Source: an uncultured Pelagibacteraceae bacterium (GTDB lineage: Bacteria > Pseudomonadota > Alphaproteobacteria > Pelagibacterales > Pelagibacteraceae). From it: a stretch of DNA of 58,906 nt. The notes under the pieces are model-generated. The model did no database searches, was not told the DNA's origin, and saw only the letters and a program-made list of their open reading frames with translations. A program made the position numbers and the translations under genes. Shown piece by piece: positions 3,054 through 39,913 of this stretch; position 1 is the stretch's first letter; the number at the start of each line of letters is the position of its first letter. The stretch lies in contig CACGHX010000005.1 of assembly GCA_902573065.1 (NCBI GenBank), positions 1 to 58,906 of the forward strand. Direction: 5' to 3'.

Positions 3054-4167
3054 ATTTAATCAAAGTTCCACCTACGGTAGGTTTTGAGCAGCCCGTTGTA
3101 TTTGGAAAAGATATTGGCTCATTAATTACATTTCGTATTGCTAAAAAACCAAATGCTTGAGACTCCACGAAATCACCGTCTACACCATAATCGTCGATTG
3201 GCTGTAACACGATATTTTTTAAAGTTCTTTTTTTAATCCTGTCTAAAAGAGATTTATTTTTTCTACCTCCGCCACAAATTAAAACTCTGAAAAGTTTTTC
3301 TCGTACTTCTGATAACAAGGAAAATAAAGCTGCGCCTATAATTCTTCCGGTAAAATCTGTTAATGTTGCAGCCCCATCCTCAAGAGATAATCCTCTTGCA
3401 AATGAGATATCAAAATCATTTACGTCTAACGATAGTGTTTTTTTATTAGATCTATTTGAATAAAGCTCTTGTGCTTGCTCTAGTATAATTTCATTAGTTT
3501 TTCCAATAGATGCAAGTTTTCCATCCTCATCAAATTTTTTATTTGAGTTTTTTCTAACCCATGCATCTATCAAACAATTTCCAGGTCCTATATCCCTACT
3601 TGTAAAATCATATGGATAATAATTCCCAACTACTGTTACATTTGATATTCCTCCAATATTAAGCACACAAGATGGTACATTAATTTTTTTTTGTTTTAAA
3701 ATTAACTGGTGAAAAATTGGAGTTAAAGGTGCACCCTCACCACCATTTTTAATATCATTTTCTCTAAAATTATAAACAATATTTTTCTTAGTTAATTTTG
3801 ATAGTAAATTTCCATCACCAAGTTGAACAGAAATTTTTTGTTCTGAATTATGATAAATGGTTTGCCCATGAAAACCTACTAAATCTATTTCATTACTTTT
3901 TGAAATTTCACCGACGACCTCAACATGGAACATTGTTATTTTTCTTTCTAAATTTTTAAGTTCTTTTGAAAAGGTTTTTAAGTCTTTTGTGTTATTTATC
4001 TTTTCTTTGAGAGAATGAATTGTTTCATAGACATCATCATTATATTTGTAATATTTATTAAATAATACTTCATATTTAGACGCTCCATCTGATCTAATTA
4101 TAGATGCATCAACTCCATCCCCGGACGTACCGCTCATTAAACCCAAAGATGTATATTCTTTACTCAT
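3046..4167 (-). CDS. anmK: Anhydro-N-acetylmuramic acid kinase
   Basis: A 373-residue protein of the expected length. AnmK phosphorylates and hydrolyses 1,6-anhydro-MurNAc to MurNAc-6-phosphate in cell-wall recycling. It begins with the nucleotide-binding motif GLMSGTSGDGVDASI, followed by GFHGQTIYH, the NIGGISNVT segment, the RDIGPGNCLIDAW motif holding the catalytic Asp, and FRVLICGGGRKN near the end. It is divergent from tyrS with a 57-base gap that must hold both promoters. The 3' end overlaps the hydrolase gene by 8 bases. Confidence 0.95.
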   Translation of the reverse strand: MSKEYTSLGLMSGTSGDGVDASIIRSDGASKYEVLFNKYYKYNDDVYETIHSLKEKINNTKDLKTFSKELKNLERKITMFHVEVVGEISKSNEIDLVGFHGQTIYHNSEQKISVQLGDGNLLSKLTKKNIVYNFRENDIKNGGEGAPLTPIFHQLILKQKKINVPSCVLNIGGISNVTVVGNYYPYDFTSRDIGPGNCLIDAWVRKNSNKKFDEDGKLASIGKTNEIILEQAQELYSNRSNKKTLSLDVNDFDISFARGLSLEDGAATLTDFTGRIIGAALFSLLSEVREKLFRVLICGGGRKNKSLLDRIKKRTLKNIVLQPIDDYGVDGDFVESQAFGFLAIRNVINEPISFPNTTGCSKPTVGGTLIKFK

Positions 4168-4224: not shown

Positions 4225-5466
4225 ATGAAAAATAGCTTTTTATCTGAAATGAAATCTCGTGGTTATCTTAATCAATGCACTGATTTAGATAATCTTGAGA
4301 AAATTTCTAAAGAAAAAACAATAAAAGCCTATATTGGATTTGATTGCACAGCTCCTAGTTTGCACGTTGGAAGTTTACTCCAGATTATGATTTTAAGACT
4401 TCTCCAAAAGTATGGTCATCAACCTATTGTGTTATTAGGCGGTGGAACTACACTTATTGGTGATCCCTCTGGTAAAGACACAACTAGGAAAATTTTAAAA
4501 CAAAAGGATATTAAAAAAAATATCACAAGTATTAAAAAACTTTTTGAAAAATTGTTATTCTCTAAAAGTAAGAAAACTAAACCAATTTTTGTCGATAATT
4601 ATCAGTGGCTTTCTAAACTAAAATATATCGATTTCCTAAGAGACATAGGTAAACATTTTACATTAAATAAAATGCTCACTTTCGAAAGTGTTAAATTGAG
4701 ATTAGACCGCGAACAATCACTAAGTTATACAGAATTCAATTATATGATTTTACAGGCCTACGACTTTTACCAATTGTATAAGAAACATGATTGTATTTTA
4801 CAAATGGGTGGTTCAGATCAGTGGGGCAATATAGTAAATGGTGTCGAATTAATAAGACGAATTCTACAAAAAGATTCATATGGATTAACAACCCCTCTTA
4901 TCACTTTATCGTCAGGTGCTAAAATGGGAAAAACAGAAAAAGGTGCTGTTTGGTTAGATAAAAAAATGTTTTCACCATATGAGTATTGGCAATTTTGGAG
5001 AAATACATCAGATGGAGATGTTAAAAAATTTTTAAATTATTTTACAGAAATAGAAACTAACGATTTATCTCAAAAAATTGATAAAGAAAAAAATATTAAT
5101 AACTTGAAAATTCTTTTAGCAAATGAAGCAACAACTTTAATGCATGGTGCAAAAGCTGCCAAAGATAGTGCAGATACTGCCAAGGAAACATTTGTGAAAG
5201 GTGGTCTGGGTAAAAATATACCAGAAAAAAAAATGAGTAATAAAGAATTTATTCAAGGTGTAAATATTATAGATTTATTTTTTCAAAATAAATTAGTGCA
5301 ATCAAAAAGCGAGGCTAGAAGAATTTTAAAAAATAATGGGATAAGAATAAACGATAATATTATAAGTGATGAAAAAAAAATTATAAATATGAATGATGTT
5401 TCTAATGATAATTTTATAAAACTGTCAATTGGAAAGAAAAATCACCTAAAAATAAAAATTATTTAG
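4225..5466 (+). CDS. tyrS: Tyrosine--tRNA ligase
   Basis: A 413-residue class I aminoacyl-tRNA synthetase that charges tRNA-Tyr. The HIGH-type motif is HVGS (47-50) within GFDCTAPSLHVGS, tyrosine recognition lies in QAYDFYQLYKKHDCILQMGGSDQWGN, and the KMSKS-type loop is KMGKT (233-237). An S4-like RNA-binding domain occupies the last 60-70 residues (QSKSEARRILKNNGIRIN). It overlaps the convergent AsmA-like gene by 8 bases. Confidence 0.97.
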   Translation: MKNSFLSEMKSRGYLNQCTDLDNLEKISKEKTIKAYIGFDCTAPSLHVGSLLQIMILRLLQKYGHQPIVLLGGGTTLIGDPSGKDTTRKILKQKDIKKNITSIKKLFEKLLFSKSKKTKPIFVDNYQWLSKLKYIDFLRDIGKHFTLNKMLTFESVKLRLDREQSLSYTEFNYMILQAYDFYQLYKKHDCILQMGGSDQWGNIVNGVELIRRILQKDSYGLTTPLITLSSGAKMGKTEKGAVWLDKKMFSPYEYWQFWRNTSDGDVKKFLNYFTEIETNDLSQKIDKEKNINNLKILLANEATTLMHGAKAAKDSADTAKETFVKGGLGKNIPEKKMSNKEFIQGVNIIDLFFQNKLVQSKSEARRILKNNGIRINDNIISDEKKIINMNDVSNDNFIKLSIGKKNHLKIKII

Positions 5467-7279
5467 CGTTTTTTTTTTTATATTCTTCAAGTGTACGAGT
5501 AATAAATCTTGGTGTTAATGTTTTTACAGGATTTACAGTTGTTTTTAAATTGTCAGTAGGTCCTTTTATTTTAAAACTTACACCAAATAATCCATCTCCT
5601 GTTTTTTTTCCGATTAAAATATCTCCTATAACAGGAATTTTTGAAACTAAAGTGTTTAGAGTCTTGGCAGGCACTAAAGTACCTCTTAAACTTAAAATAT
5701 CTTTTCTTTTATCAAAATATCCATCAATCAAAATTGAAATTGAGGGACCAATAAGAAAAATTTCTTTTATTTCCATCCAGCCATTTTTAGTTTCATATTG
5801 AATAGATAATTTATCAAAACTTATTCCATCTCCTTTTAATGCGTCTGTTAAACCCTTTAAATCTGCAAGACTAAGTAATTTTGCGAAACCTGGAGCTTGA
5901 TTAATTTTAAAATTTTCTATTAGTAAATTTCCTAATGATTTTTCTTTACTTGAGTTAGAGAGATAAAATAAATTTCCTCCTTCTAAGCCCTCAAAAAATT
6001 CATAACTATTTACCAATGGCTTAGCTTCATCAGAATAAATTTCTAAAATACTGTTGCCTGTCGTATCTTCTTTTTTAATTGATATATCTAAAAATTTATT
6101 TTTACTGAATTCACTTTTAGCAGAAATTTTTTCTAATTTACCTCTCTTTATAAGCCCAACTAATCTAAATTTATTCAGTGGGATATCGGAACTAGTCAGT
6201 ACTTCCTTAAAATCAATTTCAATATTTTTAGAAATACTACTTAAAATATTTTTTTTATTTTCTTGGTTGTTTAATTCTTTAATTAATGATCTTCCGTCAA
6301 ATATATCTCCATCGATAATAATGGCTTTTCTATTTAAAATTTTAAAATCATTGTTAATTTTATTATTCTTACTTGTTTTTATTTTCAAATTCTTAAAATC
6401 CAAGATTTCTAAATTTTTATTTAAAATAAAATTGTTTAATACAACCTCATTATTATCATTTGAAAAAATCAATTTCTGTATATGAATTTTTTTATTTTTT
6501 TTGATTGAAAGATCGCTTTTAATACTAAAAGTGTCACCTTTATTAAATTTTTTATTTATAATTGGTATTGTTTCTTGATCGCTTTGAAATATTATTTTAG
6601 AATTTAATTTTAAACTAGTCGTGCGTTTGTTATTTAATATATCAACCTTTCCATTATCAATATTTATATTATCATACTTTGCAAATAAATTATAAATTTT
6701 AATTATTTCATTTTTATATAAAAAATTTAATTTTAAATTTGATAATTTATATTTTGTGTTCGACCCAATATTAGTATCCTTTACTATTCCATTCAGAGTG
6801 AAATCTTTTACCAAGAAAGCATTATCAAAACTAAAACTAGATTTTAATTTGATTTTTAATGTATCAATTTCTTTGATATAATCTTTGTATACTTTGTCAA
6901 TTTTAATTTGTGAAATATAATTTTTAATTAAATTAATTCCGAAAAATTTTGTTTCAGCATTTACATTATTTATACTTATTTCATTTTTAATGAGTGATAA
7001 TATACTTATATTTGCTCTTAAAACTTCTAAAGGTATTTGAATAGATTTATATTGGACTTCTGGATTAATAAATTTAACAAAAAGTGTTAGTTTTTTTATA
7101 TTTAAAAAAATTGAAATTTCATCAAATTCTAAATTGACCTCTTTTTTATTATTATTTATTTCCGACTGAATAATTTTATTAAATCTATCTGTTTGATAAC
7201 CATAAAAAGATAAGAATACTATGAGAGACGAAAATAAAATTATAATAATAGCAAATAAAGAAATTAAAAATTTTTTCAT
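5459..7279 (-). CDS. AsmA-like envelope protein, shortened
   Basis: A 606-residue protein with one N-terminal membrane anchor (about residues 3-28) and a long beta-rich, Lys/Asn-rich body. The C-terminal part (GNLLIENFKINQAPGFAKLL, FDKLSIQYETKNGWMEIKE, then GLFGVSFKIKGPTDNLKTTV) is typical of the AsmA-like C-terminal region in alphaproteobacterial proteins related to AsmA, YhdP and TamB, which act in phospholipid traffic to the outer membrane. Relatives are often near 1000 residues or longer, so this looks trimmed. Its start overlaps the prfB stop by 4 bases. Confidence 0.75.
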   Translation of the reverse strand: MKKFLISLFAIIIILFSSLIVFLSFYGYQTDRFNKIIQSEINNNKKEVNLEFDEISIFLNIKKLTLFVKFINPEVQYKSIQIPLEVLRANISILSLIKNEISINNVNAETKFFGINLIKNYISQIKIDKVYKDYIKEIDTLKIKLKSSFSFDNAFLVKDFTLNGIVKDTNIGSNTKYKLSNLKLNFLYKNEIIKIYNLFAKYDNINIDNGKVDILNNKRTTSLKLNSKIIFQSDQETIPIINKKFNKGDTFSIKSDLSIKKNKKIHIQKLIFSNDNNEVVLNNFILNKNLEILDFKNLKIKTSKNNKINNDFKILNRKAIIIDGDIFDGRSLIKELNNQENKKNILSSISKNIEIDFKEVLTSSDIPLNKFRLVGLIKRGKLEKISAKSEFSKNKFLDISIKKEDTTGNSILEIYSDEAKPLVNSYEFFEGLEGGNLFYLSNSSKEKSLGNLLIENFKINQAPGFAKLLSLADLKGLTDALKGDGISFDKLSIQYETKNGWMEIKEIFLIGPSISILIDGYFDKRKDILSLRGTLVPAKTLNTLVSKIPVIGDILIGKKTGDGLFGVSFKIKGPTDNLKTTVNPVKTLTPRFITRTLEEYKKKNAK

Positions 7280-16024: not shown

Positions 16025-16723
16025 ATGGAATTTATAACTCAAATCAGAAAATTGAGTTTATGGATATTTATTATTCCTTTGGTTGCAGTAAATCTTTGTT
16101 TATTTATTTCTGTAAATTTTCATATTTTTGAAAACACCTTTTTAACTGTAGATCATATTGGTAGATCAAACCCAGTATTTCCTTACATTGATGGTGGAGT
16201 TTCAATAAGTAGAACAGCCAGAACATATCCGGCATATTTAGTATTTAAACCATCTATGATATTTGCATCATTGTTACTAATTTTATATTGGATTAAAACA
16301 AATAAGTTAATAAATACTTTTCAAAATTCAAAAAAAAATAACCTTTTTAAAACATTTGGAATACTATCTGCTATTTTTTTAATAATTCATTCAATTTTTT
16401 TAGGGGTAAAGTTTGATTATGATGTTTATAAATTTTTTAGAAGATTTGTTTTGTTTTTTTTTATTATTTTTGAAATAGTCGCACAATCATTACTTGTCTT
16501 TAGATTGTTCAAATTAAAATCATTACTTAAAAATTATTTTAATAATTACGTTCTAATTCTTAAAATTATTTTAGTTACAATTTTAGTTGTTGTTGCTATT
16601 TTAAGTCTCCCTATAGTTGTAACAAGTGGAAACGTGTACTTTAAGCATGCTTTAGAATGGAATTATTTTGTTGGAGTAATTCTTTTTTATTTGTTTACCT
16701 ATCTGTTTTGGAAAAGAATTTAG
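16025..16723 (+). CDS. Multi-pass membrane protein, possibly Frag1/DRAM/Sfk1-like
   Basis: A 232-residue protein with about six hydrophobic segments (near 12-32, 75-90, 108-128, 135-157, 177-198 and 213-230). After the first helix there is a periplasmic-like loop with FPYIDGGVSISRTARTYPA, reminiscent of the conserved first loop in Frag1/DRAM/Sfk1 and PGAP2 membrane proteins. That assignment rests on topology and this loop only. No catalytic motif is visible. It starts 11 bases after the basic mini-ORF, so the two may be cotranscribed. Confidence 0.6.
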   Translation: MEFITQIRKLSLWIFIIPLVAVNLCLFISVNFHIFENTFLTVDHIGRSNPVFPYIDGGVSISRTARTYPAYLVFKPSMIFASLLLILYWIKTNKLINTFQNSKKNNLFKTFGILSAIFLIIHSIFLGVKFDYDVYKFFRRFVLFFFIIFEIVAQSLLVFRLFKLKSLLKNYFNNYVLILKIILVTILVVVAILSLPIVVTSGNVYFKHALEWNYFVGVILFYLFTYLFWKRI

Positions 16724-16729
16724 TTTAAA

Positions 16730-16905
16730 AACTGCCGTCTACACACCTTTCGGTGCGCAGACTTTAGTTTTGGCTCGTCGTTAATGCGCTACCGCCAAGC
16801 CTCCCGTTCCACTATTTTAGCGCTACTCAGTGGAACTTTCTGCCCTTTAAGCTTGAACCTCTCGGTTTTTCCTTAAATGGCCAGTTGAGAGTTGCCCCTC
16901 AATTC
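16730..16905 (-). ncRNA. Candidate structured non-coding RNA, unassigned family
   Basis: Read on the minus strand this compact region folds into a closing helix (16879-16886 with 16730-16736, one bulge) around four hairpins: 16846-16877 (outer 6 bp, inner 4 bp, GAGA loop), 16806-16836 (8 bp), 16772-16801 (8 of 9 bp) and 16737-16762 (11 bp, GAAA loop). GNRA loops appear only on the minus strand. Loops of the second and third hairpins hold UAGCGC and GCGCUA, which could form a 6-bp kissing contact. A 5-bp stem at 16885-16902 competes with the closing helix. It is clearly more GC-rich than its surroundings and lies just downstream of mnmA. Confidence 0.65.
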
Positions 16906-16972
16906 ATTTATTAAATTATTACATCTAGAAAAAAATAGGTATCACTTTTTAGTTGTTTTAATTTACTGTCTG

Positions 16973-18106
16973 TTAATTGTGTGGATAATTTTTGTTTTCT
17001 GTTTTTTCGATCCAACCGCCACCAAGAACTCTTTCACCAATACTGTCTTTTGAATATATAACACAAGCTTGTCCTGGTGATATTCCTTTTTCATCTTGTA
17101 ATATTTCTACTTCTGCAGAATTATTTTTTATTGTAACTTTAGCATCAAGTAGTTTTCCTGTTGATCTTACTTTAATTAAAACTTTTTTTTCAAAATTTTT
17201 AGTGTCAGCTAAAAGATTTATATCCCTCAAAAATAATTTTTTAATATTTAAAAAATCCTGCGTTCCAACGACGATTGAATTATCTTTTGCTTTTATATCA
17301 ATTACGTAAAGTGGATCAGGATTCGAGATTTTAATACCTTTCCTTTGACCAATGGTATAATTAATAATTCCATCGTGCGTTCCCAATTTTTCACCTTTAA
17401 TATTAAATATGTCACCTTTTTGGAATGATTGCGGCCTATATCGCTCTATCACTGAAGCATAGTTACCGTTAGGAACAAAGCATATATCTTGACTATCTGG
17501 TTTTGTTGCTACATTAAGATTTAATTTATTTGCAATATTTCTTGTTTCGGACTTATTGATTAAACCCAAGGGAAATCGTAAATAATCTAATTGATTTTGA
17601 GTTGTGCTAAAAAGAAAATAACTTTGATCTCGTTCCTTATCCTCTGCTCTATACATTCTGCCTGATCCATTATTCTCATGTCTTAAAACATAATGTCCAG
17701 TAATTAATGCGTCAGCCTTAAGTTCTTTTGAAAATTTAAATAAATCTCTAAATTTTACTGTTTGGTTACATTGAACGCACGGGATTGGTGTTTCTCCAGC
17801 AACATAACTATTGATAAAAGAGTCTATTACTTCAGTTTTAAATTTCTTTTGATAGTAAAGAATTTTGTGTTCAATATTAAGAGTATCAGACACTCTTTTT
17901 GCATCGATAATATCTCTACCTGCACAACATTGTCTACCTGATACAGATGTTTTCGATTCATCATACAATTTTAATGTTATTCCTGTTACATTATATCCTT
18001 GCTCTTTCATCAATCCTGCTACAACTGATGAGTCTACTCCTCCAGACATTGCAACAACAACTTTTGTGTCTTTGGGTGACTTTTTTATACCTAGAGAGTT
18101 AATCAT
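16973..18106 (-). CDS. mnmA: tRNA-specific 2-thiouridylase MnmA
   Basis: A 377-residue enzyme that thiolates U34 in the wobble position of tRNA-Lys, -Glu and -Gln. The ATP PP-loop is SGGVDSS (21-27). Conserved cysteines are in PCVQCNQ (110 and 113) and DSQDICF (209), the catalytic/persulfide pair of the family. [12 protein letters not shown] and YTIGQRKGI are also present. An extra Cys pair at 60-61 ([13 protein letters not shown]) is seen in alphaproteobacterial MnmA. It is divergent from the DUF3553 gene. Confidence 0.96.
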
Positions 18107-39736: not shown

Positions 39737-39886
39737 CCCCATCTGTCTAAGAACCTGAGAGATTTGCTCCTTCGGTGAGGCCTAAGCCTGCTTTCCAGAG
39801 TTATTACAATAACGGTCCTTTTGCCTGAGAGTTTCCAGGGAGGTTGCTCCTTCGGCGCTATATTTAAATAGTCTCTCCCGTTATGC
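39737..39886 (-). ncRNA. Tandem glycine riboswitch in the gcvT leader
   Basis: Two glycine aptamers are recognisable on the minus strand. The first has GGGAGAGA, GCCGAAGGAGCAA and AAACTCTCAGGCAAAAGGAC (39880-39813); the second has CTCTGGAAAGC, CACCGAAGGAGCAA and ATCTCTCAGG (39803-39754). The core words GCCGAAGGAGCAA and CTCTCAGG recur in both. The second ends next to the gcvT ribosome site, so glycine likely switches expression on. Glycine riboswitches before gcvT are known in SAR11. Confidence 0.95.
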
Positions 39887-39913
39887 TTTCTTATAACACA
39901 ATATTTGAATTAA

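Follow-up and report, generated by a model that had tools for sequence, protein, structure and literature searches.

Locus and gene content

The window is the whole stretch of DNA that was analysed, 58,906 nt in length. On its minus strand, a structured RNA is found between mnmA, which lies ahead of it on the same strand, and a convergent gene for a predicted membrane protein (Table 1). The initial annotation had described a GC-richer minus-strand element that folds into several hairpins with GNRA-type loops, and this description holds. Folding of the predicted 188-nt transcript gives -70.7 kcal/mol, whereas shuffled sequences average -44.8 (z = -7.3, 0/200 shuffles), so that the fold is well beyond chance. 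The hairpins first described correspond to P1 to P4 of the RNA family identified below. The coding content is indeed poor, with the longest ORF entirely within the element being 30 aa.

Table 1. Features at the IMES-2 locus (window positions) and tmRNA-derived repeats elsewhere in the same genome
Feature	Position	Strand	Evidence or remark
Convergent ORF, predicted membrane protein (context)	16025..16723	+	No Pfam match
Intrinsic terminator (A/U arms around the 11-bp GAAA hairpin at 16737-16762; U tract)	16724..16769	-	Terminator scan
IMES-2 RNA core (RF02035)	16770..16909	-	cmscan, 159.8 bits
P4 hairpin	16772..16801	-	Double-sided changes in 7/9 pairs
L4 kissing strand UAGCGC	16786..16791	-	Loop centres complementary to L3 in 46/46 homologues
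P3 hairpin	16806..16836	-	Double-sided changes in 8/8 pairs
L3 kissing strand GCGCUA	16818..16823	-	Pairing with L4; corrected mutual information
P2 hairpin, internal loops and GAGA cap	16840..16884	-	96-98% of cells paired; double-sided changes in 11/15 pairs
P1 hairpin, GCAA loop	16885..16902	-	100% of cells paired in 46 homologues; double-sided changes in 4/7 pairs
Predicted extended -10-like sequence TGTAATAAT	16915..16923	-	Sequence reading; similar TGn-T-rich sequence at the same distance in representatives
Conserved upstream block ACAACTAAAAAGTGAT	16941..16956	-	Fixed distance in all locus types
Putative weaker second box-like repeat ATTAACA	16971..16977	-	In tandem with the first box in most representatives
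mnmA, gene ahead of IMES-2 (context)	16973..18106	-	Pfam tRNA_Me_trans
DnaA-box-like repeat TTATCCACA	16980..16988	-	Exact in 16/49 representatives, one mismatch in 23/49
GGCACCTGGCAACAGAACGCCCCT copies in L282 (G000:C8:25000-31776; positions within L282)	899-942, 2373-2416, 3155-3198, 4940-4983, 6360-6403

Identity of the RNA

The whole window was scanned against Rfam 15, and only two matches were above the gathering score. The first is the IMES-2 motif (RF02035). It was matched by cmscan on the minus strand over positions 1-141 of the 141 in the model, with an E value of 4.5e-42 and a score far above the gathering cut-off of 54.7 bits. The initial annotation had left this RNA unassigned, and the full-length match overturns that view. 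Each of the four consensus helices is paired in the window copy and shows covariation among homologues. IMES-2 is therefore a family already known, and the window RNA, alike in sequence and structure across the full model, is a catalogued member of it. It is present as one copy in the 770-kb partial genome to which the window belongs. The second of the two Rfam matches is a glycine riboswitch aptamer at 39803-39890 on the minus strand.

IMES-1 and IMES-2 belong to one series of names, given to marine environmental sequences, and IMES-2 is reported as abundant or expressed in seawater communities. It was reportedly first described by Weinberg et al. in 2009. IMES-1 (RF02034) had 0 matches in 91 genomes, but the control also had 0. 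Among the open-licence literature searched, no paper on the function of IMES-2 was found. An RNA like IMES-2 goes unmentioned in the available part of a 2009 survey of Candidatus P., which fits with its absence from that strain.

The RNA had been set apart from tmRNA, 6S RNA and SRP RNA, and the Rfam scan agrees. There was no match to 6S RNA (RF00013) at the window, nor to alpha tmRNA (RF01849, the split tmRNA model) or bacterial SRP RNA (RF00169) at the IMES-2 locus. RNase P RNA was likewise not matched at the locus in the scan with all Rfam families. The tmRNA of the window genome is located elsewhere (G000:C8). Part of it, GGCACCTGGCAACAGAACGCCCCT, recurs four more times downstream of the tmRNA gene at a spacing of 0.8-1.8 kb, among other repeats. 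These copies resemble an integration array at tmRNA, and several relatives have weak tmRNA side matches clustered near tmRNA. In other genera, IMES-2 and SRP RNA are both present at separate places. For SRP RNA (RF00169), all 31 genomes of g1, the genus of the window, give no match or a very weak one, and the RNA is present in every other genus sampled. The SRP RNA of g1 has probably diverged.

IMES-2 could possibly be a regulator that binds RNA polymerase in place of 6S RNA, as Ms1 does in actinobacteria. It is a stand-alone RNA of 6S-like size, and 6S RNA (RF00013) was found in 0 of 91 Pelagibacterales genomes by a search that was positive in Caulobacter, E. coli, and B. subtilis. However, IMES-2 is made of four short hairpins, without a long bulged hairpin like that of 6S RNA. 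Genomes that lack IMES-2 also have no detectable 6S RNA, so the gap is not generally filled. Such a substitution appears distinctly unlikely.

Fold and covariation

Covariation was explored in an alignment of 46 homologues, which were drawn from the window genome, related genomes, and public contigs. With kinship not fully controlled, the Rfam helices together with the L3-L4 helix have 92.3% of cells paired, 32/46 pairs with double-sided changes, and a covariation score of 0.482, compared to 0.193 in shuffles (0/500); slid structures reach no more than 0.106. The four IMES-2 helices covary strongly. Invariant bases are concentrated in the joining and loop segments. P4 columns 126/145 (alignment A1) never form a standard pair, yet they covary strongly (rank 11 of 5,336). 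This suggests a conserved non-canonical pair.

A kissing contact between the loop sequences UAGCGC and GCGCUA had been proposed. Both loops are present and covariation confirms their pairing. The consensus of both L3 and L4 is G(U/C)AGNNC, and the NN centres are complementary in every homologue through six different combinations (CG/CG, CA/UG, UG/CA, UA/UA, UU/AA, and AA/UU). Of 5,336 column pairs ordered by corrected mutual information, the two central kissing ones stand second and third. A self-complementary loop is found in only 32/46 homologues. A homodimer formed through a palindromic loop is thus disfavoured, as 14/46 loops could not pair with themselves.

The covariation is equally compatible with L3-L4 pairing within one molecule and between molecules. 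IMES-2 might accordingly be an RNA-only homo-oligomer, in which L3 would pair with L4 of another molecule to give dimers, rings, or larger assemblies. Homo-oligomers have been demonstrated for GOLLD, ROOL, and OLE. The complementarity of L3 and L4 in 46/46 homologues would serve such an assembly, and there is a precedent in ROOL and GOLLD, whose covariation-detected loop contacts turned out to be intermolecular by cryo-EM (PMC12286853). However, covariation is blind to the difference between intra- and intermolecular pairing. P3 and P4 are adjacent and joined by a short linker, so that an intramolecular contact seems feasible, and IMES-2 is far smaller than GOLLD, ROOL, and OLE. An assembly of this kind is unlikely.

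The small stem noted at 16885-16902 does exist. It is P1 of IMES-2, carries compensatory changes, and is formed in 46/46 homologues. The initial annotation had also taken this stem to be mutually exclusive with a closing helix, which would give two conformations. In the fold of a longer stretch, the closing helix pairs 16901-16905 with 16716-16720, and its 3' strand lies past the terminator and within the convergent ORF. An equivalent 5-bp helix is possible in just 8/49 representatives. The closing helix, which would need sequence past the terminator, is not conserved, and P1 is formed by all of the sequences; two conformations are therefore not supported.

Transcript and upstream element

The 11-bp GAAA hairpin that was noted initially is present and is an intrinsic terminator. 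With its T-run, it is the only terminator-like site that the terminator scan found within 16600-17100. It falls outside the RF02035 model, which ends ahead of the terminator and, being a covariance model, does not contain the kissing contact. In 49/49 representatives, including distant ones, the RNA is followed by a 3' hairpin that is alike in shape but differs in sequence, and a T-run is present in most. A transcript length of about 185 nt is inferred.

Conserved sequences are also found upstream of the RNA. In every locus type, a ATCAACnAnAAAGTGATA-like block lies about 35-50 nt upstream of IMES-2 and is followed by an extended -10-like sequence. There is one exact copy of the upstream block in the window genome, and it is the copy at IMES-2. 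Repeats like TTATCCACA, which is the DnaA box consensus, lie about 70-90 nt upstream, ahead of the ATCAACnAnAAAGTGATA-like block, and are more degenerate in 10/49 representatives. At loci of the mnmA type, the box and the 3' end of the mnmA reading frame overlap, but the box recurs in the remaining locus types as well. It is possible that DnaA binds at these upstream boxes. An origin of replication at IMES-2 was considered and rejected, as the cumulative GC-skew minimum is at about 140-180 kb and the RNA is at 303 kb in a complete genome (G038; 20-kb stretches sampled). A second RNA under the same promoter was also sought in genomes that lack IMES-2. The motif matches there had no boxes and no structured RNA downstream.

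IMES-2 thus reads as an independent gene with its own predicted control region and intrinsic terminator. The predicted promoter region, the terminator, and its U tail would also suit a base-pairing (antisense) small RNA, possibly one that depends on Hfq through the U-rich terminator tail. However, the loops covary and are occupied by their mutual pairing. The RNA shows no long single-stranded seed that is conserved; its conserved unpaired bases form short joining segments. An antisense role is therefore rather improbable.

Loci and neighbouring genes

At least four kinds of locus carry IMES-2. The first is that of the window, with mnmA before the RNA and the convergent membrane-protein gene after it. 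In genus g3, a divergent tyrosine recombinase gene, often a small ORF, IMES-2, and then a gene for an Atl1-like alkyltransferase are found in this order. In g9, a nuclease (SNase) gene precedes IMES-2 and an opposite-strand gene, which is read here as a putative HMCES gene, follows it. SelO adjoins IMES-2 in g7. The initial annotation had pointed to SAR11 genomes and to the 3' side of mnmA. The SAR11 host is confirmed and the position by mnmA is correct for the window, but it is not general, as the three other kinds of locus occur in other genera. No diverged RNA was found at mnmA in genomes that lack IMES-2.

The complex fold is directly followed by a terminator, as it would be in a cis-acting leader or riboswitch whose expression platform is the 3' hairpin. 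In g3, atl1 is the next gene on the same strand. However, in the mnmA and SNase types, two of the four, the gene that comes next downstream is encoded on the opposite strand. Because the neighbours vary and the downstream gene has the opposite strand in these two types, a cis role is highly improbable.

The g3 locus exists in two versions. The order of integrase, orf9, and atl1 is found either with IMES-2, with an orf9-atl1 gap of about 285 nt, or without it, with a gap of about 6 nt. The tyrosine recombinase is kept at both occupied and empty sites, so its presence does not mark it as the mover of IMES-2. In the RNA tree, which has few columns and weak support, the g3 type is nested inside the mnmA type. 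This suggests that IMES-2 relocated between loci. A selfish or mobile RNA cassette, kept by transposition and not by a cellular role, would be found at several types of locus, as seen here for four, and at a site that is both occupied and empty beside a tyrosine recombinase. However, IMES-2 is always present as one copy per genome, the recombinase also occurs at empty sites, the structure is under strong constraint, and neither target duplications nor ends were identified. A mobile cassette appears very unlikely.

Distribution

The RF02035 model was matched in 62/149 relatives and in 12/24 genera, and every match listed was in f1, the family of the window. A wider model was built here and found IMES-2 in 131/248 genomes of the order, once in each. 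These genomes were drawn at a completeness of at least 85%, and the window's own genome, which is 74% complete, was also included. The named records that have IMES-2 are Pelagibacteraceae. When 386 genomes of the class Alphaproteobacteria were sampled, the matches were confined to three SAR11 genomes, all of family f1.

No IMES-2 was found in g5, in g12, or in the sister family among the genomes of the order searched. Genus g3 is split. IMES-2 either scores high or is absent, except for one partial match at a contig end, and roughly half of the g3 genomes that are near-complete lack it. In g1 and g2, three genomes in which IMES-2 was not found (G010, G025, and G031) also have no mnmA in the assembly, so the absence there may be due to incompleteness. 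The absence of IMES-2 in near-complete g3 genomes, g5, g12, and the sister family indicates that it is not universally needed.

A phage origin was rejected. There was no match in the phage collection, and pattern matches in viral contigs failed the model, except for one truncated contig end. This is L250:2022-2149 (IMGVR_UViG_3300012518_000315), where the final 128 nt of the contig are a truncated IMES-2 fused inside a DNA methyltransferase ORF. L250 itself is short and carries a T4-like clamp loader gene. The fragment is probably a contig-end assembly chimera, but it could be a real phage-borne copy.

Proposed role

The varied neighbours, the conserved joining and loop bases, and the mutually engaged loops favour a trans-acting RNA that binds protein. 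The upstream element travels with IMES-2 across the locus types, which also speaks for this reading. The leading reading, which is tentative and given a probability of roughly 0.4, is that IMES-2 may be a compact RNA that acts in trans, most likely by binding a protein, with its own tuned transcription. It would act as a tertiary-folded RNA. Its hairpins may be held together by the GNRA-type caps and the kissing loops, and the bases that are invariant in the joining and loop segments would then form a surface, most likely for protein binding, as a scaffold or a sequestering RNA. Transcription could be tuned by a factor at the conserved upstream block, possibly DnaA. A joint version, in which an RNA-only homo-oligomer would form in SAR11 cells through intermolecular L3-L4 pairing and its synthesis would be tied to the replication initiator DnaA through the tandem upstream boxes, is very unlikely.

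For IMES-2, the loop contact, the SAR11 host range, and the upstream element are shown here computationally. A single-copy RNA in a defined SAR11 family, with one locus that is occupied or empty within a genus, provides natural comparisons and candidate hosts. The L3-L4 contact, backed by covariation, poses a simple question: is one molecule held together or are several joined?

Comparison with known systems

6S RNA and Ms1 are stand-alone RNAs of a size similar to IMES-2. Their architecture differs from that of IMES-2, which does not match the 6S model (RF00013). GOLLD, ROOL, and OLE are bacterial RNAs that share covarying loop-loop contacts with IMES-2 (PMC12286853). Such a contact is present in IMES-2, but it is not diagnostic, being common to many monomeric RNAs. 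GOLLD, ROOL, and OLE are much larger than IMES-2 and are not homologous to it.
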